A stretch of DNA of 64,000 nucleotides from Shinella pollutisoli (lineage in GTDB: Bacteria; Pseudomonadota; Alphaproteobacteria; Rhizobiales; Rhizobiaceae): positions 1-64,000 of the forward strand of contig NZ_JANFDG010000003.1 in NCBI RefSeq assembly GCF_024609765.1. Direction: 5' to 3'. The translations under genes were made by a program, and so were the position numbers. Position 1 is the first letter of the stretch, and every line of letters begins with the position of its first letter. Under the pieces are notes generated by a model, which ran no database searches, was not told the DNA's origin, and saw only the letters and a list, made by a program, of their open reading frames with translations. This document shows, piece by piece, positions 5,160 to 64,000 of the stretch.

Positions 5160-5195
5160 AAGGCACGCTCCGCATTCCATAGCAATTGCCTCTCC

Positions 5196-6709: not shown

Positions 6710-6731
6710 GAGGCTCGCGAGGGAAAGATCC

Positions 6732-6764
6732 GAAGGGCCGCCGGATGGCTTCCGGCGGCCCTTC
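6732..6764 (+). terminator. Stem-loop terminator after the L,D-transpeptidase
   Basis: A perfect 14-bp stem, GAAGGGCCGCCGGA (6732-6745) with its complement at 6751-6764, around a 5-nt loop. The following bases (GTCGTT) are only mildly T-rich. Confidence 0.7.
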
Positions 6765-6812
6765 GTCGTTGATGCCGTTCCTCATCCCGCGATCCGAAGC
6801 CGGTGCGGCATA

Positions 6813-6864
6813 TCCCTTCTCCCCGCTTGCGGGGAGACGGTGCCGGCAGGCGGATGCGGGGCGG
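6813..6864. repeat. RIME-like palindromic element, copy 2 (half element)
   Basis: CTCCCCGC (6819-6826) and GCGGGGAG (6829-6836) form a tight hairpin, followed by GGTGCCGGCAGGCGGATGCGGGG, a degenerate version of the second arm. It lies between convergent ldt and glcB and probably also helps end the glcB message. Confidence 0.6.
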
Positions 6865-6874
6865 AAATGCCTCC

Positions 6875-9028
6875 TCAGCCCCTCGCCTTCAGTTCCAGGC
6901 GGCGGCGGTGCAGCACCGGCTCGGTATAGCCGTTCGGCTGCTCGCGGCCCTTGAGCACGAGATCGAGGGCGGCCTGGAAGGCGACGGAGCCGTCGAAATC
7001 GGCGGCCATCGGCCGGTAGGCCGGATCGCCCGCGTTCTGGCCGTCGACGACCGCGGCCATCCGCTTCATCGTCTCGACGACCTGCTCGCGCGTGACGACG
7101 CCGTGGTGCAGCCAGTTCGCCATGTGCTGGGCGGAGATGCGCAGCGTCGCGCGGTCCTCCATCAGGCCGACATCGTTGATGTCCGGCACCTTCGAGCAGC
7201 CGACGCCCTGGTCGATCCAGCGCACGACGTAGCCGAGGATGCCCTGGGCATTGTTGTCGAGCTCGCGCTGGATCTCCTCCGGCGTCCAGTTCGGCCTGAC
7301 CGCGACCGGCACGGAGAGGATGTCGGCGAGCTTCGCCCGCGCACGCGAGCGAAGCGAGGCCTGCACCGCGGCGACGTCGACCTTGTGATAGTGCGTCGCA
7401 TGCAGCGTCGCGGCCGTCGGCGAAGGCACCCAGGCGGTGTTGGCGCCGGCCTTCGGATGGACGATCTTCTGCTCCAGCATGGCCGCCATCAGGTCGGGCA
7501 TCGCCCACATGCCCTTGCCGATCTGCGCGTGGCCGGAAAGGCCGCATTCGAGGCCGATGTCGACGTTCCAGTTCTCGTAGGCCGAAATCCAGGCGGCCTG
7601 CTTCATGTCGCCCTTGCGGATCATCGGCCCCGCTTCCATCGAGGTGTGGATCTCGTCGCCGGTGCGGTCGAGGAAGCCGGTGTTGATGAAGACGACGCGC
7701 GCCTTCGCCGCGCGGATGCATTCCTTGAGGTTGACCGTGGTGCGGCGCTCCTCGTCCATGATGCCCATCTTCATCGTGTTTTCCGCCATGCCGAGCGCCT
7801 TCTCGACGCGGCCGAACAGTTTTGCCGCGAAGGCGACCTCCTCGGGACCGTGCATCTTCGGCTTGACGACATACATGGAGCCGGCGCGCGAGTTCTTCCG
7901 CCGGCCGTTCGGGCCGATGTCGTGCAGCGCGATCAGCGCCGTGACCATGGCGTCCATGATGCCTTCCGGCACCTCGGCGCCGTCGCGGTCGAGCACGGCC
8001 GGGTTGATCATCAGGTGGCCGACGTTGCGCACCAGCATCAGCGAGCGGCCCGGCAGCGAGACGGGCGACCCGTCCGGCCCGGTGAACGCCACGTCGCCGG
8101 AAAGCCTGCGGGTGAAGGTCTTGCCGTTCTTCGTGACCGCCTCGGTAAGGTCGCCCTTCATCAGGCCGAGCCAGTTGCGGTAGACCGCGACCTTGTCGGC
8201 CGCATCGACGGCGGCGACCGAATCCTCGCAGTCCATGATCGTGGTGATCGCCGCTTCGAGGCCGACATCGGCGATGCCCGCGGGATCGTCCTTGCCGATC
8301 AGGCTGTCCGGATCGACGAAGACCAGGGTGTGGAGGTTGTTCGTCCTGAAATAGAGACGGAAGGCGGTGTCGCTCTCGCGCCTGAACCCGGCATACTGGG
8401 CCGGATCGGCAAGACCGGTGCGGCCGGCCGCCGTCTCGACGAACAGGGCGCCGTTCTCGTAGTCGAAACCGGTCGCGTCGGCCCATTTGCCGGCGGCAAG
8501 CGGGATGCTGGTATCGAGGAAGTCCTTGGCGAAGGCGACCACGCGGGCGCCGCGCGCCGGATCGTAGCCGCTGCCGCCCGGCAGATCGCCGAGCGCGTCC
8601 GTGCCGTAGAGCGCGTCGTAGAGCGAGCCCCAGCGGGCGTTGGCGGCATTCAGCGCATAGCGTGCGTTCATGACGGGGACGACGAGCTGCGGGCCGGCGA
8701 TCTCGGCGATCTCCGGGTCGACATTGGCGGTGGTGACCGAGAAGGCCTCGCCCTCGGGCAGGATGTAGCCGATCTCGCGCAGGAAGGCCTCGTAGGCGGC
8801 AAGGTCCGTCGGCGCGCCGTTCTCGCGGTACCAGGCATCGAGCTGTTCCTGGAAACGGTCGCGCTTGTCGATGAGTGCCCGGTTCTCGGGGGAGAGGTCG
8901 TGCACGATCGCGGAGAATTCCCGGAAGAAGGTCCCGGCATCGACGCCGGTGCCCGGGAGGGCCTCGTCGACGATGAAATCGTGGAGCGCGCTGTCGACCC
9001 TGAGGCCGGCCTTGTCGAGATAGGTCAT
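6875..9028 (-). CDS. glcB: Malate synthase G
   Basis: Condenses glyoxylate with acetyl-CoA to malate in the cytoplasm, for growth on acetate, fatty acids or glycolate. At 717 aa it has the length of isoform G (about 723 aa) and not the shorter isoform A. Family blocks are visible in order: [66 protein letters not shown], and a C-terminal LHRRRLELK. The start [12 protein letters not shown] at 9028 is preferred over an in-frame upstream start because the extension is not malate-synthase-like. It is not in a glc operon; its neighbour upstream is the hydantoinase-like gene, 123 bp away, on the same strand. Confidence 0.95.
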
Positions 9029-9151
9029 TTTCAATGGACTCCGGATGTGGGGAGGGAGTGATCGCGGATAGTGCCACTTTCCAGAGCTTTCATACCCCGT
9101 CAATCCGGCAATGGTTCAAAGAATTTGTTCCGCCGCGAAGAAGATAGCGGA

Positions 9152-11158
9152 CTATGCATCGCTGGCTATGCGCGGCCGCCCGCTCGCCGTCGCGGTGAAG
9201 CGGGCCTCGATCAGCTTGCGCCGCCCCTCGATCTCCGGCGCATCCACCTCCTCGGCAAGGGTGACGACCGGCTCGTCGGCGCCATTGGCGCGCGCGGCAT
9301 GGAGGGCGGCGGAGAGCGCCCGTTCGCGGGCGAGCGAGAAGGCGGCCTCCTCCTCGGTCAGCCGCACGCTGTCGCCCGCCCCGCCGACGAAGAAGATGCC
9401 CTCCTCCGGCATGGTGACGAAGACGGTGACGGCGGCGCGCACCTGGCCGACGACGGCGCCGACGGCATTGGCGACGCCGGCGTCCTCCGGGATCACCGAG
9501 CGTGCGCCCAGCATCCCGGCGATATCGGGATAGTAGACCGGCGCCGAGGCGCCGAGGCCGACCAGCGGCCGGTCGAGGCTGACGCGGAACTGCACGATGC
9601 CGGGCAGGCGGTGAAGCGCATGGTCGACGAAGAGCGCATTGGCGGGGCCGGCCGCACCGATGCCGTCGTCGGCGAGACAGGCGGCGAGGATCACGTCGGA
9701 CGACTGGCGGGTGAGCCGGTCGACGATGCGGCGCGCGAGCCCTTCCGCGCCGTCGGCGATCGGCCGGCCGGAGCCGTCCTTCATGCGCGCGGCGAGTTCG
9801 AGGCCGAGGCGGGCGGCCTCGGCGTCCCACTGTTCCTGGCCGCCCAGCACGTGCAGCGCGTCGGAGGGGGTGATGGCGCAGATATGGACGAGGCCGCGGG
9901 CGACGAGACGGTCGAGCGTCGCCCGCTGCAGCGTGCTCATCAGCAGCCCGTCGAGCGGCAGCGGCACGGCGCCGATCCGCTCGTAGAGCGCCTGCTCCTG
10001 CGCCAGCAGGCCGCTCGCCAGCCGCTCCGGCACGCCGGTGCGCACCGCGAAGCGGCCGTCGTGGCGCCCGGCATGGGGCGAGCGGAGCTGGCGCTCCAGC
10101 ACCGGCACGATCGCGCCCGGATGCTGCGCGGAGGCGAGGCTCAGCGGCAGGAAGCGCCGGGGTCCGAGGTCGAGGCTCGCCTTCAGGCCGCGGTCGCCGA
10201 TGCGCACCTCCGAATCGCCGCCGAGCCCGTAGGTGCGCATGGCGACGGCCTCGACCATCGTGCGGTAGCCGCCGACCACGGCGCCCTCGGCGTCGAGCTT
10301 CGGCCGGCCGCCGTCGAGCACGGCGACGTCGGTGGTGGTACCGCCGATATCGGAGACGACGGCGTCGTCGAGGCCGGTCAGATGACGCGCGCCGACGAGG
10401 CTCGCCGCCGGTCCCGACAGGATGGTCTCGATCGGCCTCAGCCGCGCCTCGGCGGCGGCGATCAGCGCGCCGTCGCCGCGCACCACCATCATCGGCACAT
10501 GGATGCCGCGCCGGTCGAGATAGTCCTCGCAGGCGCCGATCAGCCGGTCGATCATCGAGACGAGCCGGGCGTTGAGCAGCGTCGTCAGCGCCCGGCGCGG
10601 GCCGCCGAGCTTCGAGGTGAGCTCATGGCTGCAGGTCACGGGGAGCTGCGAGACGGCGCGGATGCGCTCGCGCACCCGTTCCTCGTGGGCGGGGTTGCGC
10701 ACGGCGAAATAGCCGGCGACGGCGAAGGAGGAGACCGTGCGCGACAACTCCGGCAGCGCTTCGTCCAGCGCCGTCATGTCGAGCGTGCGCTCGTTGCCGT
10801 GGACGTCGTGGCCGCCGGGCAGGAACAGGACGGGGTCGTTGCCGAGCGCGTCGGCGAGCCCGTCGCGCTTCAGGTCCTCGGGGCCGAAGCCGACCATGAC
10901 GAGGCCGGCGCGGCCGCCCTGCCCCTCCACCAGCGCATTGGTGGCGAGCGTGGTGGAAAGCGAGACCAGCGCGATCGACGAGATCGCCGCCCCGGCCTCC
11001 TCCAGCACCGCCTCGACGGCGCCGGAAATGCCGACGGCGAGGTCGTATCGGGTGGTGAGAGCCTTGGCGCGGGCGACGACGCCCGCCGTTTCGCTGTAGA
11101 GAACGGCGTCCGTATAGGTTCCGCCGGTATCGATGCCGAGCAACAACTGATCCGTCAC
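9152..11158 (-). CDS. Hydantoinase/oxoprolinase family ATPase, HyuA-like
   Basis: A 668-aa protein of the HyuA/5-oxoprolinase-alpha family: N-terminal hydantoinase domain with the actin-like ATP-binding motif LGIDTGGTYTDAVL at residues 7-20, and the middle hydantoinase A domain with the second phosphate motif DIGGTTTDVAVLDGG. It opens cyclic amides such as hydantoins at the cost of ATP. The start is GTG at 11158 with GGAAG about 8 nt upstream. Such proteins usually act with a HyuB subunit from the adjacent gene; none is present here, so substrate and partner are unknown. The same gene order suggests possible cotranscription with glcB, but the 123-bp gap leaves that open. Confidence 0.82.
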   Translation of the reverse strand: MTDQLLLGIDTGGTYTDAVLYSETAGVVARAKALTTRYDLAVGISGAVEAVLEEAGAAISSIALVSLSTTLATNALVEGQGGRAGLVMVGFGPEDLKRDGLADALGNDPVLFLPGGHDVHGNERTLDMTALDEALPELSRTVSSFAVAGYFAVRNPAHEERVRERIRAVSQLPVTCSHELTSKLGGPRRALTTLLNARLVSMIDRLIGACEDYLDRRGIHVPMMVVRGDGALIAAAEARLRPIETILSGPAASLVGARHLTGLDDAVVSDIGGTTTDVAVLDGGRPKLDAEGAVVGGYRTMVEAVAMRTYGLGGDSEVRIGDRGLKASLDLGPRRFLPLSLASAQHPGAIVPVLERQLRSPHAGRHDGRFAVRTGVPERLASGLLAQEQALYERIGAVPLPLDGLLMSTLQRATLDRLVARGLVHICAITPSDALHVLGGQEQWDAEAARLGLELAARMKDGSGRPIADGAEGLARRIVDRLTRQSSDVILAACLADDGIGAAGPANALFVDHALHRLPGIVQFRVSLDRPLVGLGASAPVYYPDIAGMLGARSVIPEDAGVANAVGAVVGQVRAAVTVFVTMPEEGIFFVGGAGDSVRLTEEEAAFSLARERALSAALHAARANGADEPVVTLAEEVDAPEIEGRRKLIEARFTATASGRPRIASDA

Positions 11159-11280
11159 GATATGTCTTCCAACTTGCAGGCGGGCCTTTTCAAACCGGCC
11201 CGCCGATGGTGTTATTGCATGTCAGAGGCAAAGGCCATCGTTCCGCCGGCGACATCCGGCGTGGGATCGGGAGGATTTCG

Positions 11281-11823
11281 ATGGATTTCGGCGGAAAGCA
11301 TCGGCTCGCGCTCGTCCTCTTTCTCCTCCTCGCCGTCACCGGCCCGGCCGCCGCGCAGGAGGACGACGAGGAGGAATACCGGCCGCAGATCCCGGACGTC
11401 TCGATCTACAAGGCGATGCTCGACGCCAACAAGCAGACGGGCTGGATCCAGTTCCGCGATTTCGCCGGCAAGCAGCTCGTCTATTTCACGGCGCTGCAGA
11501 CCATGCACTGCCGGCTGTCGGAGGTGCGCTACTCGATCAATTCCGACGCGCTCGACCGGCGGCTGCCGCTCGGCACGTGCGACCCGCAGCTGCCCTTCAA
11601 CCTGCCGGCAGACGACACGAACGAATATATCTACATTTCGCTGAAGCCCGGCGAGGCCGAGACGGTCGCCGTGCAGGCCGTCTGGGACGACGGCAGCGGC
11701 AGCGAGATCGTCATCTACAAGCCCTGCGAGAACGCCGGCGAGGCCACCTGCGCGGCGATCAAGTCGATCAAGAAATCGAAGAAGCGCGCCGACGAGCCGG
11801 CGCCGTCCATGCCGGCGCGGTAG
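11281..11823 (+). CDS. Conserved hypothetical exported protein
   Basis: A 180-aa protein I cannot assign. It starts at ATG 11281 with GGGAGGA about 6 nt upstream and has a clear signal peptide (hydrophobic LALVLFLLLAVTG, cleavage after AAA-Q), then an acidic stretch. The mature part has four cysteines (MHCRL, GTCDP, KPCEN, ATCAA), which would suit two periplasmic disulfides, and ends in a Lys-rich tail (IKSIKKSKKR). No enzyme motif is visible. It is divergent from the HyuA-like gene and followed by a RIME-like repeat. Confidence 0.7.
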   Translation: MDFGGKHRLALVLFLLLAVTGPAAAQEDDEEEYRPQIPDVSIYKAMLDANKQTGWIQFRDFAGKQLVYFTALQTMHCRLSEVRYSINSDALDRRLPLGTCDPQLPFNLPADDTNEYIYISLKPGEAETVAVQAVWDDGSGSEIVIYKPCENAGEATCAAIKSIKKSKKRADEPAPSMPAR

Positions 11824-11900
11824 GGGTTTCGTTTTCGCGGCAGCGGGATGAGAGGGGGGACGCTCGCCAAGCGAAATCAGGGTCGAAAAGCTGTGTTCCA

Positions 11901-11950
11901 CCCCCTCATCCGGCCCTCCGGGCCACCTTCTCCCCGGCGGGGAGAAGGGG
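11901..11950. repeat. RIME-like palindromic element, copy 3
   Basis: CCCCTCATCCGGCC, then GGCCACCTTCTCCCCG and CGGGGAGAAGGGG, form two nested palindromic arms of the same family as copies 1 and 4. It separates the convergent exported-protein gene and the DUF1402 gene. Confidence 0.7.
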
Positions 11951-11979
11951 AAAGCGGCGGAGAGTTGCGCCTGATGCGC

Positions 11980-12927
11980 TCAGAGCAGGCCCTTCAGCTC
12001 GTCGAGCCGGTCGTTGACCAGCCAGCCGTAGTAGTTCTCCTCCGGCCAGGTCGCCTCGCCCGACGCGCGGCGGGCGGCGAAGGCGGCGGCGCGGGCGTCC
12101 GGATTGCCGAGATTGTAGAGCGTGGCGGTGATGCCGGGATTGCGGGAGATGTCAACGCCGGCGATCCTGCGGTAGGCGTCGATGGAGCGCTTGATCGAGG
12201 CGGCCATGTAGGCAAGCGAGATGTCCGGGTCCATGATCGCCTTGTAGACGCCGGCCGCGTCGTTCTCGTCGAGCCGATCGTAGCCGGAGACGCGCGCCAC
12301 GTCGTCGGTGAGCGTCAGCGCGGTCAGCGGGTTGATCTGGCCGAGGCCGAAGGTCTGCCCGGCATAGAAAGGCTGGAAGAAGACCGCGCTGAAACGGTTG
12401 TTCGGGAAGGCGGTGCCGCCGACGCTCTTGCCCTTGAACTGCCTGTTCCAGACGGTCTCGCGGCAGGTCCACAGCGCATAGGAGCCCGTCTTCTCCGCGC
12501 ATTTCGCAAATTCCGGCCGGCCGACGAAATCGCCGATCGATTCGCCGTCATAGGCGAAGCGGAAATTGCCGGCATAGGACGCGGCCTTGACGTAGTAGCT
12601 CTGCAGCCGGTCGTAGGCGTCGACATTGTAGGTGTGCTCGCCGACGATCGCGCCGACCATGTGGATCGGGTCGATGCCGTACTGGCCCGCGACCTTGCGG
12701 ATCTTGCCCATCAGCGCCCGGTCGGTGGCGAGCAGGTCGCGCACCTTCTCGTATTTCGCGTCGAAGGAGGTCTTGCCCGCCTTGGTGCGGCGCACGGAGG
12801 CGCCCGGAACCTGCGGCTGCTCGGCGTTGCGGTTGCCGGGCGGCACGAGCTCGGCGGCCGCCGCGAGGGTCTGGCCGTGAAGCAGGAGGGCCGCCGCGAG
12901 GGCAAGCATCAGGGAGAACTGTCGCAC
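11980..12927 (-). CDS. DUF1402 family exported protein
   Basis: A 315-aa protein of a family largely limited to Rhizobiales; function unknown. I chose the GTG at 12927 because it starts a good signal peptide (VRQFSLMLALAAALLLHGQTLAAAA); the frame stays open to an ATG at 13008 but those residues are not signal-like. The mature part includes MVGAIVGEHTYNVDAYDRLQSYYVK and QTFGLGQINPLTAL, the latter resembling the Gln-Ile-Asn core of lytic transglycosylase folds, so a peptidoglycan role is possible but not shown. Two cysteines (FAKCAEK, LWTCRET) could pair. It lies downstream of hslVU on the same strand, after a terminator. Confidence 0.75.
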   Translation of the reverse strand: MRQFSLMLALAAALLLHGQTLAAAAELVPPGNRNAEQPQVPGASVRRTKAGKTSFDAKYEKVRDLLATDRALMGKIRKVAGQYGIDPIHMVGAIVGEHTYNVDAYDRLQSYYVKAASYAGNFRFAYDGESIGDFVGRPEFAKCAEKTGSYALWTCRETVWNRQFKGKSVGGTAFPNNRFSAVFFQPFYAGQTFGLGQINPLTALTLTDDVARVSGYDRLDENDAAGVYKAIMDPDISLAYMAASIKRSIDAYRRIAGVDISRNPGITATLYNLGNPDARAAAFAARRASGEATWPEENYYGWLVNDRLDELKGLL

Positions 12928-13052
12928 GGTCTGCGTTCCCGTCTTAACGATATCGGCGAATCGCGCCGATCGATGCAATCCAATCGTGTCGGAATCATGC
13001 CGAAGCACGGCAGGGGCCGGCCTGTCGAGGGCGGGAAGGCGCGAAAACGGCG

Positions 13053-13080
13053 ACCGGCGGCCGCAAGCGCGGCCACCGGT
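13053..13080 (-). terminator. hslU terminator
   Basis: ACCGGCGGCCGC (13053-13064) pairs at 11 of 12 positions with 13069-13080 around a 4-nt loop, 10 nt beyond the hslU stop. On the minus strand it is followed by CGCCGTTTTCG, giving a short U-run. Confidence 0.6.
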
Positions 13081-13089
13081 GCCGAAACG

Positions 13090-14397
13090 TCACAGAATGT
13101 AGCGCGACAGGTCCGTGTTGGCGGCAAGCGCGCCGACATGCTTGCGGACATAGTCCGCATCGATGACGAGCCGGTCGCCGGACTTGTCCGGCGCCTCGAA
13201 GGAGATCTCGTCGAGCACCCGCTCCATCACCGTCTGCAGGCGCCGCGCACCGATGTTCTCGACGCTGGCGTTGAGCTGAACGGCGACGTCGGCGAGCGCG
13301 TCGATCGCGTCCTCGGTGAAGTCGAGCTCGACCTTCTCCGTCTCCATCAGCGCCTTGTACTGGCGGATGAGGCTCGCCTCGGTCTCCGTCAGGATGCGGC
13401 GGAAATCCTCCTTCGTCAGCGCGCGCAGCTCGACGCGGATCGGCAGGCGGCCCTGCAGCTCCGGCAGGAGGTCGGAGGGCTTGGAGACATGGAAGGCGCC
13501 GGAGGCGATGAAGAGGATATGGTCCGTCTTCACCGGCCCGTACTTGGTGGCGACCGTCGTGCCCTCGACCAGCGGCAGCAGGTCGCGCTGCACGCCCTCG
13601 CGCGAGACGCCGGCACCGAGCCCGCCGTCGCGGGCGGCGATCTTGTCGATCTCGTCGATGAAGACGATGCCGTCGTTCTCGGCCGAGCGGACGGCCTCGC
13701 GCTGGATCTGCTCATTGTCGAGGAGCTTGTCGGATTCGTCGTCGATCAGGATCTTGTAGCTGTCCTTGACCGTCGTCTTCACCTTCTTCGTGCGCCCGCC
13801 CATCGCCTTGCCGAACATCTCGGAGAGGTTCAGCACGCCGATATTGGCGCCCGGCATGCCGGGGATCTCGAAGCCGGGCATGCCGCCGCCGGTATCGGCG
13901 ACGTCGATCTCGATCTCCTTGTCGTCGAGCTCGTTGTTGCGCAGCTTCTTGCGGAAGCTGTCGCGCGTGGCGGGCGAGGCGGTGGCGCCGACCAGCGCGT
14001 CGAGCACCCGCTCCTCGGCATTCGCATGGGCCTTGGCCGTCACCTCGGCGCGCTTCCTGTCGCGCACCAGCGCGATGCCGACCTCGACGAGGTCGCGCAC
14101 GATCTGCTCGACGTCGCGGCCGACATAGCCGACCTCGGTGAACTTGGTCGCCTCGACCTTGACGAAGGGCGCGCCGGCGAGCTTGGCGAGGCGGCGCGAG
14201 ATCTCCGTCTTGCCGACGCCGGTCGGGCCGATCATCAGGATGTTCTTCGGCATCACCTCGTCGCGCAGGTCCGGCGACAGCTGGTGGCGGCGCCAGCGGT
14301 TGCGCAGCGCGATCGCCACGGCGCGCTTGGCGTCCTTCTGGCCGATGATGTAGCGGTCGAGCTCGGAGACGATCTCGCGGGGGGAGAAATTGGACAT
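13090..14397 (-). CDS. hslU: HslU, ATPase subunit of the HslUV protease
   Basis: AAA+ unfoldase that feeds proteins to the HslV peptidase; cytoplasmic hexamer, 435 aa. Walker A is GPTGVGKT at 57-64, with Walker [11 protein letters not shown], the GYVGRDVE pore motif and the C-terminal sensor region [18 protein letters not shown]; it ends in a hydrophobic tail (SRYIL), as HslU needs for activating HslV. The start has GGAAAG 4 nt upstream. It follows hslV after 111 bp; many rhizobia are annotated with an acetyltransferase gene in this gap, but here it holds only hairpin-prone GC-rich sequence. Confidence 0.97.
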
Positions 14398-14508
14398 GGG
14401 CTTTCCGTTTCTGGCAACGGTCCCGGGCCATCGTCGGCGCCGGGCCGTCCCGTATCAGTCCTTCATCTTGTCCGCGGCACCCGGCCGGACGGCCCGGGCA
14501 TCGCGGCG

Positions 14509-15069
14509 TCAGCGGTCGGCGTCGAGCGTTTCGACGACGACATTGTGATTGGTGTAGACGCAGATGTCGCCGGCGATCTGCATGGCGCGCCGGGCGATCT
14601 CCTCGGCCGACTTGTCCGTGTCCATCAGCGCGCGGGCGGCCGCATAGGCATAGTTGCCGCCGGAGCCGATCGCCATCGTGCCGTGCTCGGGCTCCAGCAC
14701 GTCGCCGTTGCCGGTGAGCGCCAGCGTGACGGACTTGTCGGCGACGAGCATCATCGCCTCCAGCCGGCGGAGATACCGGTCGGTGCGCCAGTCCTTGGCG
14801 AGCTCCACGGCCGCGCGCATGAGCTGGTCGGGATATTGCTCCAGTTTCGACTCCAGCCGTTCCAGCAGCGTGAAGGCGTCGGCCGTCGCGCCCGCGAAGC
14901 CGGCGATCACGTCGCCCTTGGCGAGGCGTCGGACCTTTCGCGCGTTGCCCTTCATGATCGTCTGGCCGAGGCTCACCTGGCCGTCGCCCGCCATCACCAC
15001 CTTGCCGTCCTTGCGGACCGTGATGATGGTCGTGGCATGCATCGTCGCATAGGGATCGTGTTCACTCAT
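14509..15069 (-). CDS. hslV: HslV, peptidase subunit of the HslUV protease
   Basis: Threonine protease of the proteasome beta-type, 186 aa. The nucleophile is Thr13, the first residue of [21 protein letters not shown], exposed after removal of a 12-residue propeptide; this is longer than the single Met removed in E. coli and usual for alphaproteobacteria. The Gly-rich [13 protein letters not shown] segment and [16 protein letters not shown]-terminal part are typical. It is first in the hslVU unit and divergent from hisB, the usual rhizobial arrangement. Confidence 0.97.
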
Positions 15070-15133
15070 GACATACCTTCAGGGCCCGTTGCCGGGCGGG
15101 ATGCCACCCCCGCGGGGCGGCTTCGTCGACCCC

Positions 15134-15161
15134 TATGTAGGCGGCCCGCCGGCAATTGCAA
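15134..15161 (-). promoter_or_regulatory. Possible hslV promoter
   Basis: On the minus strand TTGCAA (15156-15161), 16 nt, TACATA (15134-15139), about 65 bp before hslV. It fits a housekeeping promoter weakly. I do not see a clear heat-shock sigma-32 pattern in the gap. Confidence 0.3.
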
Positions 15162-15242
15162 AGGACCGCCGACACGCTGGCGTTTTGCGGCGCACCCTGT
15201 TATGGAGCGGCGTCAGCAGGCCGGAGAACCCCGGAGAAAACC

Positions 15243-15836
15243 ATGAGCCGCAAAGCCAGCGTTTCGCGCAAGACGAACGAGACCGCCGTTTCCGTCACCG
15301 TCGACATCGACGGCACCGGCACGTCGACGATCTCGACGGGCGTCGGCTTCTTCGACCATATGCTGGACCAGCTCTCGCGCCATTCGCTGATCGACATGGA
15401 GATCAGGACCGAGGGCGACCTCCACGTCGACGACCACCACACCGTCGAGGACACCGGCATCGCCATCGGCCAGGCCATTGCGAAAGCGCTCGGCGACCGG
15501 CGCGGCATCACCCGCTACGCCTCGCTCGATCTCGCCATGGACGAGACGATGACGCGGGCCGCCGTCGACGTCTCCGGCCGGCCGTTCCTCGTCTGGAACG
15601 TCGCGTTCTCCGCGCCGAAGATCGGCACCTTCGACACAGAGTTGGTGCGCGAGTTCTTCCAGGCTCTCGCCCAGCACGCCGGCATCACCCTGCACATCCA
15701 GAACATCTACGGCGCGAACAACCATCACATCGCCGAGACCTGCTTCAAGGCCGTCGCGCGCGTGCTGAGAACCGCGACCGAGATCGACCCCCGCCAGGCA
15801 GGCCGCGTTCCCTCGACGAAGGGCTCGCTGGCCTGA
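15243..15836 (+). CDS. hisB: Imidazoleglycerol-phosphate dehydratase
   Basis: Sixth step of histidine synthesis: removes water from imidazole glycerol phosphate. A monofunctional 197-aa enzyme (without the E. coli phosphatase domain). Metal-binding motifs are [13 protein letters not shown] near the start, [11 protein letters not shown], and the C-terminal [14 protein letters not shown]. The start at 15243 has GGAGA about 6 nt upstream; the frame is open further back without sequence resembling HisB. First gene of hisB-DUF2628-hisH-hisA-hisF-hisE. Confidence 0.97.
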
Positions 15837-15858
15837 CGGCCCATCCGGAGGCCAAACC

Positions 15859-16320
15859 ATGGCCACATTCCTCGTTCTGATCCCCCCGGGTGCGGCCGCG
15901 CACGACGAGAAGGCCCGCTTCCTGCGCGACCGCTTCTCCTGGATCGCCTTGCTGCTGCCGGTCCTCTGGCTGCTCTGGCACCGGGCTTTCGCCGCCGCGC
16001 TCCTCGCGCTCGCCGTGCAGGGCCTCGGCCTTGCGATCATCGGCCATGCGGGGCTCGGGGCCGCCGGCGCAGCACTTCTCCTTGCGACCGGCCTCATCGT
16101 CGCGCTCGAAGGCCCGTCGATGGTCGCCGCCGGCCTCGGATACAGGGGGTGGACGCAGGACGCCGTGATCGTCGCCGAGGACCGGGCGACGGCCGAGGAG
16201 ATCTATTATACGGAAACCGCCGGCACGCCGGAGCGCGTCGAGCCCAGCCTCACGGCATCGGATGCCGGGCGCAGGCACGGGCCGATGCTCGGCCTCGTCG
16301 GTTTCGGGGAAGGACGCTGA
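15859..16320 (+). CDS. DUF2628 family membrane protein
   Basis: A 153-aa protein with a short N-terminal segment, hydrophobic stretches around residues 30-50 ([29 protein letters not shown]) and 60-90, and a hydrophilic tail. It matches DUF2628, which regularly sits between hisB and hisH in rhizobia. Function is unknown; the position suggests cotranscription rather than a role in histidine synthesis. hisH starts 2 nt after its stop. Confidence 0.8.
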
Positions 16321-16322
16321 GA

Positions 16323-16964
16323 ATGCGCGTTGCGATCATCGACTACGGCTCGGGCAACCTGCGCTCGGCCACCAAGGCCTTCGAGCGGGCGGCCCGCGAG
16401 GCCGGGATTGCCGCCGAGATCGCGCTCACCGACAGGGCCGAGCGCGTCGCTTCCGCCGACCGGATCGTGCTGCCGGGCGTCGGCGCCTATGCCGATTGCC
16501 GCCGCGGCCTCGACGCCGTGCCCGGGATGGTAGAGGCGCTGCGCGAGGCGGTCGAGGCGAAGGGAAAACCCTTCCTCGGCATCTGCGTCGGCATGCAACT
16601 CATGTCCTCGCGCGGGCTGGAGAAGACCGTCACCGAGGGACTCGGCTGGATCAAGGGCGACGTCGTTCTCATGAAGCCTGCGGATCCCACGCTGAAGATC
16701 CCGCAGATCGGCTGGAACACGCTCGACCTGAAGCGTCCGCATCCGCTCTTCGACGGCATCCCGGCGGGGCTTCACGCCTATTTCGTCCATTCCTACCATC
16801 TCGCCGCGGCGGACGCGCAGGACGTGGTGGCGACCGTCGACTACGGCGGGCCGATGACCGCCTTCGTCGCCCGCGACAACAAGGCCGGCGCCCAGTTCCA
16901 TCCGGAGAAGAGCCAGGCGCTCGGCCTTTCCCTCATCACCAATTTCCTGCGCTGGAAGCCGTAA
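16323..16964 (+). CDS. hisH: Imidazole glycerol phosphate synthase, glutamine amidotransferase subunit
   Basis: Provides ammonia from glutamine to HisF. 213 aa, class I amidotransferase: starts [15 protein letters not shown], nucleophile Cys in [11 protein letters not shown], His/Glu pair in [10 protein letters not shown]. The start overlaps nothing and lies 2 nt after DUF2628; hisA begins 1 nt after the stop, so translation is probably coupled. Confidence 0.97.
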
Positions 16965-16965
16965 G

Positions 16966-17709
16966 ATGATCCTCTTTCCCGCCATCGACCTGAAGGACGG
17001 CCAGTGCGTTCGCCTGAAGCTCGGCGACATGGACCAGGCCACCGTCTACAATCCCGACCCCGCCGCCCAGGCGAAGGCCTTCGAGGACCAGGGTTTTAAG
17101 TGGCTGCATGTGGTCGACCTCAACGGCGCCTTCGCGGGGACAAGCGTCAACGGCGCCGCGGTCGACGCGATCCTCAAGGCGACGAGGAACCCGGTGCAGC
17201 TCGGCGGCGGCATCCGCACGCTCGACCATATCGAAAGCTGGCTTGCGCGCGGCCTCTCCCGCGTCATCCTCGGCACCGTCGCCGTGCGCGACCCGGCGCT
17301 CGTCATCGAGGCCTGCAAAAGGTTCCCCGGCAAGGTCGCCGTCGGCATCGACGCCAAGGGCGGCAAGGTGGCGGTCGAGGGCTGGGCGGAGGCCTCCGAG
17401 CTCGGCGTGATCGAGCTTGCGAAGAAGTTCGAGGGCGCGGGCGTGGCCGCGATCATCTATACCGACATCGACCGCGACGGCATCCTCGCCGGCATCAACT
17501 GGACCTCGACGCTGGAACTCGCCGATACAGTCTCGATCCCCGTCATCGCCTCCGGCGGGCTCGCCTCGATGGACGACATCCGCCGTCTCGTCGCCCCCGA
17601 GGCCCGCAAGCTGGAAGGCGCGATCTCCGGCCGCGCGCTCTACGACGGCCGGATCGATCCGGCGGAGGCCCTGGCCGTGATCCGTGAAGCGAAAGGACGT
17701 GCGGCGTGA
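16966..17709 (+). CDS. hisA: ProFAR isomerase
   Basis: Amadori isomerisation of N'-ProFAR in histidine synthesis. 247 aa (beta/alpha)8 barrel with catalytic Asp in [14 protein letters not shown] and the second Asp in [11 protein letters not shown], and phosphate-binding GGGIRT and ASGGL. Its stop codon overlaps the GTG of the small duplicated hisF fragment (GTGA), not that of hisF itself, which starts 107 bp later. Confidence 0.97.
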
Positions 17710-17819
17710 CCCTGAAAGCCCGCGTCATCCCATGCCTCGACGTCAAGGACAGCCCGCGACGCCCGCAGCCGCGGAGCGGCGAGGACGCGCAAAGCAAGAA
17801 AGAGGAGGCCGTCCTTTGA
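17706..17819 (+). pseudogene. Duplicated hisF start forming a 37-codon ORF
   Basis: The first 45 nt (17706-17750) repeat the first 45 nt of hisF (17816-17860) at 40 of 45 positions and encode the identical peptide [15 protein letters not shown]; apart from the first base of the start codon, all four differences are in third codon positions. After that the frame runs on in unrelated Pro/Arg/Glu-rich residues and ends at TGA 17817-17819. It starts with GTG overlapping the hisA stop and its own stop overlaps the TTG of hisF, so ribosomes could pass hisA to this ORF to hisF. It may be a decayed remnant of an older hisF, or a coupling leader. Confidence 0.75.
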
Positions 17820-18592
17820 CCCTCAAGGCCCGCGTCATCCCATGCCTGGACGTGAAGGACGGCCGTGTCGTCAAGGGCGTCAGCTTCGTCAACCTCATCG
17901 ATGCGGGCGATCCGGTGGAGTCGGCCAAGGCCTATGACGCGGCCGGCGCCGACGAGCTCTGCTTCCTCGACATCACCGCCTCCTCCGACAACCGCGAGAC
18001 GATCTTCGACGTGGTGGCGCGCACGGCCGAGCATTGCTTCATGCCGCTCACCGTCGGCGGCGGCGTGCGCGCGGTCGCCGACATCCGCAAGCTGCTGCTC
18101 GCCGGCGCCGACAAGGTGTCGATCAACTCGGCCGCCGTGGCGAACCCCGACTTCGTCGCCGAGGCCGCCGACAAGTTCGGCAACCAGTGCATCGTCGTCT
18201 CCATCGATTCCAAGAAGGTGTCGCAGGCAGGCGAGGAGGACCGCTGGGAAATCTTCACCCATGGCGGGCGCAAGCCGACCGGCATCGACGCCGTCGCCTT
18301 CGCCGAAAGGATGGTGGAGCGCGGCGCGGGCGAGCTGCTGCTCACCTCGATGGACCGCGACGGCAGCAAGAGCGGCTACGACATCGCGCTGACGCGCACC
18401 ATCGCCGACCGCGTCTCCGTGCCGGTGATCGCGTCGGGCGGCGTCGGCACGCTCGACCACCTGGTCGAGGGCGTGCGCGACGGGCATGCGACCGCCGTGC
18501 TCGCCGCCTCGATCTTTCATTTCGGCACCTATACGATCGGCGAGGCCAAGCGCTACATGGCCGAGCACGGCATTCCCATGCGGCTCGACTGA
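17816..18592 (+). CDS. hisF: Imidazole glycerol phosphate synthase, cyclase subunit
   Basis: Joins with HisH to make imidazole glycerol phosphate and AICAR. 258 aa barrel protein with catalytic Asp in [13 protein letters not shown] and the second in [21 protein letters not shown] and [10 protein letters not shown] bind phosphate. The start is a TTG at 17816, supported by a perfect AGGAGG (17803-17808) 7 nt upstream and by family length. Upstream is the duplicated fragment of its own start. hisE follows after 9 nt. Confidence 0.96.
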
Positions 18593-18601
18593 GGAGAGGC
18601 C

Positions 18602-18925
18602 ATGACCACCTTCACCCTTGCCGATCTCGAAGGCATCGTCGCGGAGCGCGCGAAAGCCGACCCATCGCAATCCTGGACGGCGAAGCTCGTTGCCGCCGGC
18701 CAGGGCAAAGCGGCGAAGAAACTCGGCGAGGAGGCGGTGGAAACGGTGATCGCCGCGATCGAGGGCGACCGGGCGGCACTCACCAGCGAGGCCGCCGACC
18801 TCCTCTATCACCTGATGGTCGTATTGAAAATCGGCGGCGTGGCGCTACAAGAGGTGCTGGAGGAGCTGGAGGGCCGTACGCGCCAGTCCGGCCTTGCGGA
18901 GAAGGCCGGCCGGCAGAACGGATGA
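18602..18925 (+). CDS. hisE: Phosphoribosyl-ATP pyrophosphatase
   Basis: Second step of histidine synthesis. 107 aa single-domain enzyme (not fused to HisI), with the metal-binding [18 protein letters not shown] and the helix [21 protein letters not shown] precedes the start. The stop overlaps the coaA start as ATGA, so coaA is probably translated from the same message. Confidence 0.95.
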
Positions 18926-19917
18926 TCCAGGCAGCGCGCGACAAGGACCAGGCGGATATTCCGGACGATTTCGGAAATCACGACTATTCGCCCTATCGCT
19001 TCTTCTCCGCCGAGGAATGGGCGCATTTCCGCGCCGATACGCCGCTGACGCTGACGGCCGACGAGGTGCGCCGGCTGCGCTCGCTGAACGACCCGGTCGA
19101 TCTCGACGAGGTCCGGCGCATCTACCTCTCGCTGTCGCGGCTTCTCTCGGCGCATGTCGAATCCTCGCAGATGCTGTTCGAGCAGCGCAAGCGCTTCCTC
19201 AGCCTCTCCAACGAATCGAAGACGCCCTTCGTCATCGGCATCGCCGGCTCGGTCGCGGTCGGAAAATCCACCACCGCCCGTATCCTCGCGGAACTGCTCT
19301 CGCGCTGGCCCTCCAGCCCCAAGGTCGATCTCGTGACGACCGACGGCTTCCTCCATCCGAACGCCGTGCTCCAGCGCGAGAACCTGATGGACCGGAAGGG
19401 CTTTCCGGAGAGCTACGACACCGGCGCGCTGCTCCGCTTCCTCTCGGCGATCAAGGCCGGCCTGCCGAACGTGCGCGCGCCGACCTATTCGCACCTCACC
19501 TACGACGTGCTGCCGAACACGTTCCGCACCATCGACCGCCCCGACATCCTGATCTTCGAGGGCATCAACGTGCTGCAGTCGCGCAACCTGCCGGCCGACG
19601 GCAAGATCGTGCCGATGGTCTCGGACTTCTTCGACTTCTCGATCTACATCCACGCCGAGGAGGCGCTGATCCACAACTGGTACGTGGAACGCTTCATGCG
19701 ACTGCGCGACACCGCCTTCCGCAGTCCCGATTCCTACTTCCACCGCTACGCGACGATCGGCGAGGACGAGGCGCTGTCGATCGCTGAAGGCCTCTGGCAC
19801 AACATCAACCTGAAGAACCTGCGCCAGAACATCCTGCCGACGCGCCCGCGCGCCGACCTGATCCTGCAGAAGGGTCCGAACCATCTCGTCGAGACGGTGG
19901 CGCTCCGCAAGCTCTGA
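18922..19917 (+). CDS. coaA: Pantothenate kinase, type I
   Basis: First and controlling step of coenzyme A synthesis. 331 aa, P-loop GSVAVGKST at 109-117, then [20 protein letters not shown] and the C-terminal [12 protein letters not shown] typical of CoaA. The ATG at 18922 overlaps the hisE stop by 4 nt. Last gene of the his operon; a palindromic repeat follows. Confidence 0.96.
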
Positions 19918-19926
19918 TCGCTTCAC

Positions 19927-19970
19927 GCAATTCCGGACGGAAAACCGCTCCGCACTTTTCCTGGAATTAC
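19927..19970. repeat. Rhizobial intergenic palindrome (GCAATTCC...GGAATTAC)
   Basis: GCAATTCC (19927-19934) and GGAATTAC (19963-19970) pair at 7 of 8, and inside them GGAAAA (19939-19944) and TTTTCC (19956-19961) pair fully. I recognise the unit as a frequent rhizobial intergenic repeat. It separates convergent coaA and alkB. Confidence 0.65.
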
Positions 19971-19979
19971 CTAAGCCGG

Positions 19980-20597
19980 CTAAGGATTCACCCGCCGTAA
20001 CGTCAGATTGATCCGCCCGCCGTTCTTCAACAGCGTCGAGGTGCCCGGATAGATGCGGTCGACCCCGTGGAAGACCAGCCGGCTTTCGCCGCCGAGCACC
20101 AGCACGTCGCCGCTCGACAGGCGGAAGGAGCGCGTGGGGTCGTCGCGCCTGAGCCCGCCGACGCGGAAGAGGCACTGGTCGCCGAGCGAGACCGAGACGA
20201 CGGGCGCGGCAAATTCGGCCTCGTCGCGATCCTGGTGCAGGCCCATCCGCGCCTCCCCGTCGTAGAAATTGACGAGACAGGCTTCCGGCGGAGCCTGGAA
20301 GCCGGCGACGGCCCGCCAGAGGTCGAGGAGAACGGCGGGAATCTCCGGCCAGGGTCTTCCCGTCTCGGGATGGGACGGCTGGTAGCGATAGCCGCGCTCG
20401 CGGTCCGTCACCCAGCCGAGCGGGCCGCAATTGGTCATGCGCACGGACATCGGCTTGCCGGTCCTCGGCATGCGCGGCACGAACAGCGGCGCATCCGCGA
20501 CCACGCGGCGGATCGCGGCGACGAGACCCTCCTGCGCCTCGCGATCGTAGTAGCCGGGCAGGTAGCGCAGGCCGGGCGGCAGCGACGGGTCAGCCAT
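19980..20597 (-). CDS. alkB: AlkB-type alpha-ketoglutarate-dependent dioxygenase
   Basis: Removes alkyl groups from DNA or RNA bases by Fe(II)/2-oxoglutarate oxidation. 205 aa with the iron triad His121, Asp123 (LHQDRDE) and His177 (FHGVDR), and the 2-oxoglutarate arginine in RINLTLRR near the C terminus; spacing matches E. coli AlkB. No Ada domain. Its start overlaps the arfB stop by 8 nt, so the two are cotranscribed. Substrate among AlkB subfamilies is not certain. Confidence 0.92.
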   Translation of the reverse strand: MADPSLPPGLRYLPGYYDREAQEGLVAAIRRVVADAPLFVPRMPRTGKPMSVRMTNCGPLGWVTDRERGYRYQPSHPETGRPWPEIPAVLLDLWRAVAGFQAPPEACLVNFYDGEARMGLHQDRDEAEFAAPVVSVSLGDQCLFRVGGLRRDDPTRSFRLSSGDVLVLGGESRLVFHGVDRIYPGTSTLLKNGGRINLTLRRVNP

Positions 20598-22734: not shown

Positions 22735-22848
22735 GGTGCGGTTTTCCTCCATGGCGACAAAAGTCCCGCGTGAAATTTTCGTGAAACTAATCTGCGCATG
22801 ACGGAAAAACAAGCGGGCAGTTCGAAATTAACCAATGATATCAAATAA

Positions 22849-22904
22849 TTAATCGATTTAAAGAATTATCTTACTTTTTTAATCGGTTAAATAATCGATT
22901 TAAA
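22849..22904. promoter_or_regulatory. Phased repeats in the pckA-chvI divergent region
   Basis: The 13-mer TAATCGATTTAAA occurs at 22850-22862 and again at 22892-22904, start to start 42 bp, four helical turns. A related TTAATCGGTTAA lies between, at 22879-22890. Each has a CG-centred AATCGATT-like core, as LacI-family operators do. The surrounding 22790-22905 is the most AT-rich stretch of the inner window. The LacI-type repressor PckR, known to control pckA in Sinorhizobium, is a candidate ligand (inference). Confidence 0.55.
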
Positions 22905-23026
22905 TCCCCGGCGGCGGCCGCGTCGAAAACGCACCCTTTATCTTCGCCACAATTTGTTCCACCTTTATCCCCAAGGAGGCGCATCGGAAAAAACCGGAAA
23001 GGGCGCCCATGACGATGGAGAGCAGG

Positions 23027-28646: not shown

Positions 28647-28674
28647 TCCTTACCCGACTTATCCACAACATGTG

Positions 28675-60299: not shown

Positions 60300-61156
60300 C
60301 AATGCCTCTCCATGTCCGCGAGGATCAGGCGGCGCAGCGTCTCGTCGACGACCGGACGGACGCCGAACCATTTCTCGAAGCCCGGCACCGCCTGGTGCAG
60401 CAGCATGCCGAGCCCGTCGACGGTGGCAAAACCCTGTTTGGCCGCCTGTCTCAGGATCGGCGTCACCAGCGGCACGTAGACGATGTCGGTCACGACGGCA
60501 TCTTCGGCCAGCGGCAAGAAGTCGAAGTCGGGCGCCGCCTCGCCGTCCATGCCGAGCGAGGTCGTGTTGACGAAGAGCCCCGCCCCTTTCGAGACCTCGG
60601 CGAGCGCTTCCATCGGATGGGCGTGCACCCGCGCGCCGAACCGGTCGGCGAGCTCCCGCGCCCGCGCCACGGTGCGGTTGACGACGTGGATTTCGCCGAC
60701 GCCGCGATCGCGCACGGCCTGGATGACGGCGCGGCTCGCCCCGCCGGCGCCGAGGATGACGGCGCTGCCGATGCCGTTCCAGCCGGGGACGGCTGCATCG
60801 AGATTGGCGAGGAAGCCGCGGCCGTCGGTGTTGGTGGCGTGGATGAGCCCGTCCTCCAGCCAGAGCGTGTTGGCCGCGCCCAGCTCCTCGCTCAGCGCGT
60901 CGGGCCTGTCGGCGAGGCGGAAGGCCGCCTCCTTGTGCGGGAGGGTGACGTTGCCGCCGCAGAAGCCGGATTCGCCGCTCTTGAGCGCGGCGATGAAGCC
61001 GGCGAAGTTTTCCGGCGCCACTTCCTCACGGGTGTAGCTGCCCGGAATTCCGAGCGTTTCCAGCCAGTGGCCGTGGATCAGCGGCGAGCGCGAATGCCGG
61101 ACCGGAAAGCCGGTGACGAAGGCGCGGCGGAAGGATGTTTCACGTGAATCATGCAT
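60299..61156 (-). CDS. aroE: Shikimate dehydrogenase
   Basis: Reduces dehydroshikimate to shikimate with NADPH. 285 aa: [18 protein letters not shown] (substrate), catalytic Lys in [15 protein letters not shown] motif [10 protein letters not shown], and [18 protein letters not shown]. The ATG at 61156 (MHDSRE) is preferred on family grounds; the GTG at 61165 has the better-spaced AGGGAG, so the start is not settled. Overlaps maf by 8 nt. Confidence 0.94.
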
Positions 61157-61775: not shown

Positions 61776-62588
61776 TTAGCGGAGCCTCGGGCGAAGGGCA
61801 ACGATTGCCGCGGCGGTTTCCTCGATCGAGCGGCGGGTGACGTCGATCATCGGCCAGTTGTTGCGCGCGCAGATCGCGCGCGCATATTTCAGCTCCTCGG
61901 CGATCTGCGCGCGGTCCGTGTAGTCGTCGCCGCGGAAATCCTGGGTCTGGCCGAGAATGCGGTTCTCCCGCACCTGGGAGATCCGGTCGGTGGTGGCGAT
62001 CAACCCGACGATCAGCGGCCGGGTGGCCTGCGCCAGCCGCTCGGGCAGCGGCACGCCGAGCACGATGGGCACATTGGCCGTCTTGATGCCGCGATTGGCG
62101 AGATAGATGCTCGTCGGCGTCTTCGAGGTGCGGCTGATGCCGACGAGGATCACGTCCGCCTCGTCGATATCGGCGGGCAGCTGCCCGTCGTCATGGTCCA
62201 TCGTGAAATTCAGCGCGTCGATGCGGGCGAAATAGTCGGCGTCCATCACGTGCTGCGCGCCGACGCGGCGGCGCGACGGCGCGCCGAGATAGGACTGGAA
62301 GAGGTCGATGATCGGCTCGAGCACGGAGACGCAGGGAAGCCCCATCTCCCGGCAGCGCTGGTCGATGATCTCGGAGAGCTCGCGGTCGACGATCGTGTAG
62401 AGGACGATGCCGGGCGCGCCGTCGATGGCGTCGAGCACCGCCATCAGCTGCTTGCGGTTTCGCACCAGCGGATAGACGTGCTCCAGCGCCTGCGAGGACT
62501 GGAACTGGGCGGCGGCGGCCCGGCCGGCGGCGATCAGCGTCTCGCCCGTCGAGTCCGAAATCAGATGGAGATGGAAGTAGTTTTTCAT
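61776..62588 (-). CDS. ppsR: PEP synthase / PPDK regulatory protein (kinase-phosphorylase)
   Basis: 270 aa, DUF299 family. [14 protein letters not shown] at the start, the P-loop [15 protein letters not shown], and [14 protein letters not shown]. It controls pyruvate phosphate dikinase or PEP synthase by ADP-dependent phosphorylation of a Thr; rhizobia have PPDK, so that is the likely target (inference). Start at 62588 with GGAGAG upstream. Flanks the probable replication origin. Confidence 0.94.
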
Positions 62589-62682
62589 GCTCTCCACAAT
62601 ATCCTCCGCTGCCTGTTGATAGGCCGGGACGGCCAAGAGCTAATGACGGCGGCGGCCCCGAGGCAAGGGGACAACGTCCGAT

Positions 62683-62691
62683 TTATCCACA
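62683..62691 (+). promoter_or_regulatory. DnaA box, perfect
   Basis: TTATCCACA, 9 of 9 to the consensus, in the probable origin. Confidence 0.85.
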
Positions 62692-62725
62692 AAGGCGGGT
62701 GACGCCCGGCCGCTTGTCCCGCGGC

Positions 62726-62734
62726 TGTGGACAA
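62726..62734 (-). promoter_or_regulatory. DnaA box, 8 of 9
   Basis: TTGTCCACA on the minus strand; part of an inverted CTTGTCC / GGACAAG pair (62713-62719, 62729-62735). Confidence 0.7.
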
Positions 62735-63002
62735 GACTCGCGGAACGGCAAAGTGTCGCGTCCATCCACAGCCGGCCCACAGGAACGGCATTTTCCAAGA
62801 CCGGCGTAATCTCCTGATTCGAAAGCCGGAATCCGAATGATCCCCGATCTTCTGGAAAAGCATCCGAATCCATCCTCCGGATTCGGGCGCCGCGGCGCAT
62901 CAAGGGTTCCCTGTGGAGCGGATTTAATCCTTGATAGTCACCGACTCTAAGAAATAGAAACCTCTTCAAAGAGATTTTTTCATTGTTTGGGAGAGTTCCG
63001 CG

Positions 63003-64000
63003 GTGTCTCGGAAAAGCCGGAAGATCGTCGATGTTTTGAATGGCAAGACGGTTTCTCCCCCTCCCCTGTGGCTGATGCGGCAGGCGGGACGCTACCTGCC
63101 GGAATACCGCCGGACGCGGGAGCAGGCGGGCGGCTTCCTCGATCTCTGTTATTCGCCGGAGCTCGCGACGGAGGTGACGCTGCAGCCGATCCGGCGCTAC
63201 GGCTTCGACGCGGCGATCCTGTTCTCCGACATCCTCGTCATCCCCGATGCGCTGAGGCGCAATGTCCGCTTCGAGGAGGGCCATGGACCGAGGCTCGACC
63301 CGATCGACGCCGACGGCATTCGCGCGCTGAAGCCCGATGCGGTCGCCGACCACCTGCGGCCGGTGATCGAGACGGTCGGCCGCATCCGCGCGGCCCTTCC
63401 GGAAGAGACCGCCCTTCTCGGCTTCTGCGGCGCGCCCTGGACGGTCGCCACCTACATGATCGCCGGCCACGGCACGCCGGACCAGGCGCCGGCCCGGCTC
63501 TTCGCCTATCGCGACCGGGCGACGTTCTCCTATCTCCTCGATTTCCTCGCCGACGTCTCGGCCGATTATCTCGTCGCGCAGATCGATGCCGGCGCCGATG
63601 CCGTGCAGATCTTCGATTCGTGGGCGGGGGTTCTCGGCGAGCGGGAATTTGCCGATTTCGCGGCGCGTCCCGTCCGGCGCATGATCGATTCGGTGCGCGC
63701 GCGCCGCCCGGCCGCGAAGGTCATCGCCTTCGCCAAGGGGGCCGGCCTGCTCCTGAAGACCTACCGCCAGGAGACGCGGGCCGACGCGATCGGCCTCGAC
63801 TGGTCCGTGCCCCTCTCCTTCGCCGCCGAGCTGCAGAAGGACGGTCCGGTGCAGGGCAATCTCGACCCGATGCGCGTCGTCGCCGGCGGTGCGGCGCTCG
63901 ACGAGGGCGTCGACGCGATCCTCACGGCGCTCGGCAACGGCCCGCTGATCTTCAATCTCGGCCACGGCATCACGCCGCAGGCCGATCCGGAGAACGTGGC
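63003..64000 (+). CDS. hemE: Uroporphyrinogen decarboxylase (3' end outside the window)
   Basis: Heme synthesis: uroporphyrinogen III to coproporphyrinogen III. Starts with GTG at 63003, 5-7 nt after GGGAGAG. Signatures [17 protein letters not shown] and [17 protein letters not shown], then [11 protein letters not shown] and QGNLDPM. 332 codons lie in the window; the family is about 340, so only the last few residues are missing. The frame is open to the window end. Next to oriC, reading away from it. Confidence 0.97.

Follow-up and report, generated by a model that had tools for sequence, protein, structure and literature searches.

Where does the main chromosome of Shinella begin to replicate? 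The question is raised by a gene-free interval of 414 bp (62589..63002) between ppsR and hemE, near the right end of a window of 64 kb; the window is the whole stretch of DNA analysed, and it forms the start of a 276-kb contig (C23) of a Shinella genome of 5.2 Mb in 79 contigs (G000). The interval had been predicted, from its letters alone, to be the chromosomal origin of replication. Comparison with the homologous gaps of relatives indicates that it is almost certainly the DnaA-dependent oriC of the main chromosome, a prediction that places the Shinella origin within 414 bp. It also brings out a near-invariant element of 43 bp, which the original prediction did not mention, and assigns the repeated GATTCG motifs of the gap to a methylation site.

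The ppsR-hemE gap and the loci compared

Pfam matches give the gene order fxsA, secB, an exonuclease (dnaQ-like), coaE, aroE, maf, ppsR, the gap and hemE. On the minus strand, ppsR (kinase/pyrophosphorylase, Kinase-PPPase, PF03618; 61776..62588) starts at a conserved ATG at 62588; on the plus strand, hemE (URO-D, PF01208; 63003..64000) starts at a GTG at 63003 and is cut by the window end. The gap was thus rightly described as free of genes, both by Pfam and by the open reading frame positions (62588 and 63003); like the other features given below without a strand, it has none. To the right of the window, C23 continues with rho, mnmE, mnmG, rsmG, a parA-type gene and a parB gene. A structured RNA between 61500 and 64000 was considered and rejected, the sole Rfam match scoring 17.2 against a cut-off of 40.

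The stretches upstream of hemE were compared at 110 loci, 109 of which were fetched as stretches of 3-7 kb (1.33 million strand-bases in all). A set of 100 gaps omits the ten loci at which the fetched DNA does not contain ppsR, these being restored for the 110; three Shinella loci (L032-L034) come from the same genomes as G006, G007 and G009 and are double-counted in the 110, in the 100 and in the 90 element-bearing gaps considered below. For other orders, the set consists of the 29 best-scoring hemE loci other than the own, 50 of the 57 genomes searched having a match. Finally, 35 loci of Hyphomicrobiales were picked by hand from the 100 gaps, the order of one of them (L102) not being known.

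DnaA boxes and the A/T-rich run

As in the hemE-type origins of alphaproteobacteria, the gene-free region beside hemE holds a cluster of DnaA boxes. The perfect and the near-perfect box of the original prediction are both there: B1 (TTATCCACA, 62683..62691, plus strand) has no mismatch, B2 (TTGTCCACA, 62726..62734, minus strand) has one, and in an alignment of 21 Shinella genomes, the comparison that had been proposed as a check, each is kept with 0-1 mismatch in 21/21. At this level (at most one mismatch) the 64-kb window contains 7 boxes against 1.48 expected, and C23 contains 10 over its 276 kb, among which only B1 and B2 lie within 100 bp of each other. Weaker boxes, also predicted, are found with two mismatches at 62590, 62614, 62762 and 62851. 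That at 62762 (B3, CCATCCACA, 62762..62770, plus strand), which has 2 mismatches in the window genome, has 1 mismatch in 11/21 Shinella and 2-3 in the remaining 10/21; a weak DnaA-like half box, TGTGGA (62912..62920, minus strand), has 2 mismatches in 17/21 and 3 in 4/21, the window genome included.

B2 runs directly into a GACTC site (62735), and the combination TGTGGA-N-AAGACTC is found in 30 of the 100 gaps and missing from 70. Beside B2, AGTGTCGCG (62752..62760) is near-invariant in the 21-genome alignment; it seems confined to the genus Shinella, and is not known to be bound by any protein. The related count, AGTGTCGC in 24/100 gaps, is accounted for by the Shinella rows.

Seven perfect DnaA boxes occur in the 5.2-Mb genome, and a second one falls within the window (28659-28667), about 12 bases past the stop of a gene that looks by eye like one for adenosylhomocysteinase; two GATTCG motifs lie within about 110 bp of it. 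It is possibly a DnaA-titrating or regulatory site.

The predicted A/T-rich run is likewise present at 62948..62997, with 70% A+T. Whether stability is computed over 40, 60 or 80 bp, only one place in the window is less stable, and on composition and stacking energy alone the run is the putative DNA unwinding element. That least stable place is 22825-22905, an A/T-rich stretch with inverted repeats (by eye) between genes that resemble, also by eye, those of PEP carboxykinase and of a ChvI-like response regulator.

Skew minima and parS-like sites

It could be argued that the true origin lies elsewhere, for instance beside dnaA, and that what separates ppsR from hemE is merely a promoter region under DnaA regulation. 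In four relatives (G001, G009, G012 and G017) dnaA is found 0.25-0.42 Mb away, and the cumulative GC skew of C23 itself is noisy, with a minimum at 40,414, 22 kb away from the gap. In two relatives the cumulative minimum falls not at dnaA but close to hemE, 3 kb and 25 kb from it within the stretches summed. In Shinella sp. H4-D48 (G009), a contiguous 334-kb stretch has its minimum at 35,445, with hemE at 32,390, and if hemE marks the origin, the sign is as expected in 18 of 20 samples of 20 kb spread around the 3.48-Mb chromosome, skew being positive up to 1.76 Mb and negative between 1.91 and 3.33 Mb; exceptions in sign are a value of +0.011 at 2.784 Mb and the sample 1-20,000 just left of hemE, which is also positive. 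In G012 the expected sign is seen in 16/20 spread samples and the wrong one in 4/20. Because two wrong-sign samples fell near dnaA and between dnaA and hemE, skew was summed there over 41 stretches that together leave little of 0.8 Mb uncovered; some stretches between the two genes have positive skew, yet the cumulative minimum lies at 1,801,601, with hemE at 1,776,677, and the sum reads -2607 at hemE against -743 at dnaA, 338 kb away.

The parS-like sites, scored against the parS consensus, speak for the same place. One site with 1 mismatch lies at 61136..61151 and five more at 67473, 67515, 69465, 78622 and 82246, so that all six such sites of C23 are within 61,136-82,246 and none is elsewhere in the contig at that level (a two-mismatch site is found at 21096); parA- and parB-type genes are located at about 70-72 kb. 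Six 1-mismatch sites were also found in the 0.8 Mb scanned in G012, all at most 20 kb from hemE. An origin away from the gap is further at odds with the hemE-side origin of Sinorhizobium meliloti. A marker-frequency peak near hemE is described for Hyphomonas in PMC6650430. On this evidence an origin beside dnaA or elsewhere is highly improbable. The reading of the gap as oriC is preferred since skew minima in two relatives, a parS-like cluster near parAB, and B1 and B2 kept in 21/21 Shinella agree with one another, and the original prediction is upheld in its main point. The Shinella oriC is itself ordinary; an oriC between ppsR and hemE is what is expected for Rhizobiaceae.

A near-invariant element of 43 bp

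The most conserved stretch of the gap is an element of 43 bp (GGATTTAATCCTTGATAGTCACCGACTCTAAGAAATAGAAACC, 62920..62962, plus strand), identical in 20/21 Shinella and with one change in the remaining one. It consists of a degenerate DnaA-box-like sequence (62934-62942), a GACTC (62943-62947) and an A-rich tract. Its 15-base core, CACMGACTCTAAGAA, was found by genome search exactly once per genome in 21/21 Shinella; of 20 further genomes searched, one has it as well. Upstream of hemE, a regular expression for the core that keeps the GANTC matches at 97/110 loci, and the 1.33 million strand-bases of the 109 fetched loci contain no second match. An exact 13-base core is present in 6 genomes of a 199-genome sample of the order: three of the seven family genomes sampled, namely that of the window and two others, which carry it beside their hemE, and three outside the family, in one of which it is on a different contig from that of hemE. 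In Sinorhizobium sp. (L046) the element has 3 differences in 43.

Thirteen of the 110 loci are without the GANTC element as such: five of other families of the order (L027-L031), three of Cohaesibacter (L109-L111), and L078, L102, L103, L075 and L086, the genomes of the last two carrying the element or a diverged copy at their ppsR locus instead. In L027, L102 and L109-L111 this position is taken by AATCCACG, a sequence like a DnaA box, which in L027 and the three Cohaesibacter loci is followed by a CTAA-containing A-rich tract. Among 30 registers tested at 88 loci, the nine bases before the GANTC are the best for a DnaA box, though in absolute terms the register is poor (mean 3.8 mismatches, next best 4.2; 4 in Shinella). 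No description of a GANTC-bearing element was found in what could be seen of the open literature, the main subscription papers lying outside reach, which is thin ground for calling it unpublished.

Two further observations concern its distribution. Aurantimonas, Aureimonas and one further family member (L024, L064, L069, L074, L077) keep the element upstream of hemE, and ppsR is not detectable in the genomes of this group (0/5). A record titled Bacillus subtilis strain SK6B4 (L066) contains an alphaproteobacterial ppsR-oriC-hemE region, with a hemE 68% identical to that of Shinella and an element resembling that of Brucella; it is probably mislabelled or contaminated.

Origin element or hemE promoter

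The position of the element invites another explanation, namely that it is mainly the promoter and leader of hemE, possibly controlled by GcrA and CcrM with the GANTC in the spacer, and that only the left boxes constitute oriC. Between the end of the element and hemE lie 39-41 bp in the 21 Shinella and, for the most part, 31-85 bp in those other relatives in which the element can be recognised; TTGATA stands at a -35-like place in Shinella, and the genome has GcrA and CcrM-type genes. Against this, TTGATA is lost in the relatives from Brucella, Mesorhizobium and Bartonella, where CAGACTC-AGAA stays, and a simple scan for sigma-70 promoters returns no promoter pair in 62500-63060, so that a sigma-70 promoter in the gap was rejected at the level of that scan.

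More telling is the arrangement in Pseudaminobacter soli, a natural case in which origin and hemE have become separated. Its ppsR locus (G223) reads ppsR, boxes, a diverged element (ACAGAGTCGTAGAATCAGAA), hemJ and a rho-like gene, hemJ being assigned by NCBIfam and the downstream rho and mnmE look-alikes by eye; there is no hemE match at this locus, and the copy, with 2 mismatches, was missed by the pattern search for the element. Its hemE (L075) is found away from ppsR and without the element. The element thus remains at the origin after the departure of hemE, while the relocated gene does without it, although the diverged copy could still drive hemJ. In a metagenome-derived genome (G224) with two hemE genes, the element is found only with the one located at ppsR. 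The arrangements in G223 and G224 therefore favour an origin element over a hemE promoter, and the latter is unlikely to be the main function of the 43 bp.

GATTCG repeats and GANTC sites

Repeated GATTCG motifs, with an 8-bp inverted pair, had been noted in the gap and do occur there, at 62816, 62865 and 62880, with the pair at 62864-62871 and 62879-62886; in the 64-kb window the motif is rare (35 against 82 expected). Their attribution to a cluster without an assigned protein does not hold, because GATTCG is GANTC, the methylation site of CcrM, plus a G, and the identity of the motif is corrected accordingly. That CcrM recognises GANTC is stated in PMC3973325 and PMC2877005, and the window genome encodes a CcrM-type RAMA domain and GcrA. 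A binding site of an unknown protein was thus rejected, the inverted pair not being conserved either.

Six GANTC sites are found in the gap (62735, 62816, 62829, 62866, 62880 and 62943). Four of them occupy fixed places in Shinella: GACTC beside B2 (62735..62739) in 21/21, GATTC of the first GATTCG (62816..62820) in 19/21, GAATC (62829..62833) in 20/21, and the GACTC of the element at 62943 in 21/21 by alignment. The two sites of the inverted pair CCGAATCC/GGATTCGG (62864..62886; GANTC at 62866 and 62880) are each found in 1/21, the window genome only. On the minus strand the pair forms a terminator-like stem; one such stem was found, where shuffles lead to an expectation of 0.6. Four conserved sites together with the CcrM-type RAMA domain are what a CcrM-methylated origin should display.

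The sites might nonetheless be a by-product of intergenic composition, GANTC being depleted in coding DNA of these bacteria, with no role at the origin. Dinucleotide shuffles of the gap give 2.7 of the 6 sites seen, 85/2000 shuffles reaching 6, and in the window gap alone GCNGC is more extreme (9/2000 shuffles). Conservation is lacking for two of the six sites, and GANTC is over-represented in intergenic DNA generally (PMC3973325, PMC8725594). Within the 64 kb, the 414-bp intervals richest in GANTC (7 sites, start near 62547) overlap the gap and no other 414-bp place on C23 exceeds 5, whereas one relative (G009) has only 4 sites in its gap and denser clusters elsewhere. Over the relatives, 110 sites are observed where shuffles give 45 (21 Shinella); the 71 named loci have 292 against 142, and a set of 23 loci, roughly one for each genus, has 99 against 44. 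Among the 16 palindromic XYNyx motifs, GANTC ranks first by this ratio in each of the three sets. The excess over local composition is modest (2.0-2.4 fold) and, taken alone, weak evidence. Conservation of position is more telling than the count: besides the four sites fixed in 19-21 of the 21 Shinella, the GANTC of the element reads GACTC in 83, GAGTC in 6 and GATTC in 1 of the 90 element-bearing gaps, in which only a change of the middle base is informative, since the search pattern required GANTC. A mere by-product of composition is therefore possible, if somewhat doubtful.

A putative unwinding module and its possible control by methylation

Considered with its neighbours, the 43-bp element is, on its sequence, somewhat more likely than not part of an unwinding module. 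DnaA would bind the array B1-B3, be guided from B1 and B2 to the weak box in the element, and open the A/T-rich tract at 62948-62997. In the oriC of E. coli, the methylation state of Dam sites affects re-opening, and the GACTC in the element might let methylation act on re-opening in the same manner. Newly copied origins would stay hemimethylated for a time at their GANTC sites, because CcrM acts late in the cell cycle, as known for Caulobacter (PMC6090056, PMC3973325). This gate is the weakest step of the mechanism. According to PMC11514494, overexpression of CcrM in A. tumefaciens changed ori2 and not, significantly, ori1, and cells with two ori1 foci made up essentially the same proportion after depletion of CcrM, which argues against strong methylation control at such origins. 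An effect of methylation of the element's GACTC on initiation is predicted only tentatively, and is rather unlikely. The GACTC (62943-62947) nevertheless offers a five-base spot for testing whether CcrM methylation times DnaA-dependent initiation in alphaproteobacteria.

Runs of three or more CNA (complementary to 3'-GNT-5' and resembling DnaA-trios) occur at 16 of the 29 hemE-upstream loci of other alphaproteobacterial orders (L192-L220), against a shuffle rate of 0.028, the reversed control ANC being found at 7/29 with a shuffle rate of 0.046. No such run of CNA occurs at any of the 35 loci chosen across Hyphomicrobiales. It may be speculated, at rather long odds, that in Rhizobiaceae (in the wide GTDB sense) the CNA-type module has given way to a fixed arrangement (degenerate DnaA box, GANTC and A-rich tract), in which CcrM would write on the opening site and hemimethylation would gate re-initiation. 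If true, an E. coli-like logic of re-initiation would have been reached with a different methylase.

A canonical DnaA-box/DnaA-trio unwinding system (BUS) was also sought with the rule of PMC8287927, its second-box step being omitted: a box with at most 2 mismatches, a spacer of 0-16 bp and three or more 3'-NAN-5' trios, in a position that is conserved. The rule matches 9/21 Shinella gaps, the window included (62590), at places that differ, and in none of the 21 does it match at the 43-bp element. The element resembles a BUS in having a box-like sequence, a short spacer and an A in every third position of the box strand. It differs in that the published trio bases are on the other strand, the tract of the element being A-rich on the box strand and hence T-rich on the opposite one, and in a box that is too degenerate (4 mismatches). 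A canonical BUS was rejected because of this polarity and for want of a common place in Shinella. In the wider sets the rule matches 12/29 and 17/35 loci, and the mean BUS score is 1.90 against 0.67 in shuffles (29 loci) and 2.69 against 0.84 (35 loci); some trio-like signal is thus somewhat more frequent there than in shuffles.

Comparison with known origins

The closest counterpart is the chromosomal oriC of Sinorhizobium meliloti, which Sibley, MacLellan and Finan reportedly demonstrated by experiment in 2006 beside hemE, with DnaA boxes. The Shinella gap, from the same family, has DnaA boxes at the same place beside hemE as this origin; the one is reported to have been shown experimentally, the other is predicted.

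The Cori of Caulobacter crescentus and the Shinella gap both lie beside hemE and both contain GANTC sites, several being reported for Caulobacter origins in PMC3973325; the presence of GANTC in an origin is thus, alone, not new. The two differ in their relation to CtrA, which binds the Caulobacter origin (PMC1914354). The Shinella gap has a single TTAA (62924) and no TTAA-N7-TTAA, as the original prediction had already remarked, so that control of the type that silences Cori through CtrA was rejected for this gap.

With the unwinding region of the E. coli oriC, of the Dam/SeqA type, the Shinella element shares a layout: a box, a methylation site and a CTAA-type A/T-rich tract. In the E. coli stretch TTATCCACAGGGCAGTGCGATCCTAATAAGAGATC, which is, reversed, a portion of a longer sequence found in 4792/5426 E. 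coli genomes, the Dam site and CTAATAA stand in the same order as in the element, and three relatives (L025, L059, L088) read GACTCTAATAA where E. coli reads GATCCTAATAA. The methylation site is GATC, for Dam, in E. coli and GANTC, for CcrM, in Shinella, two different methylases; the likeness in layout may be convergent or due to chance.
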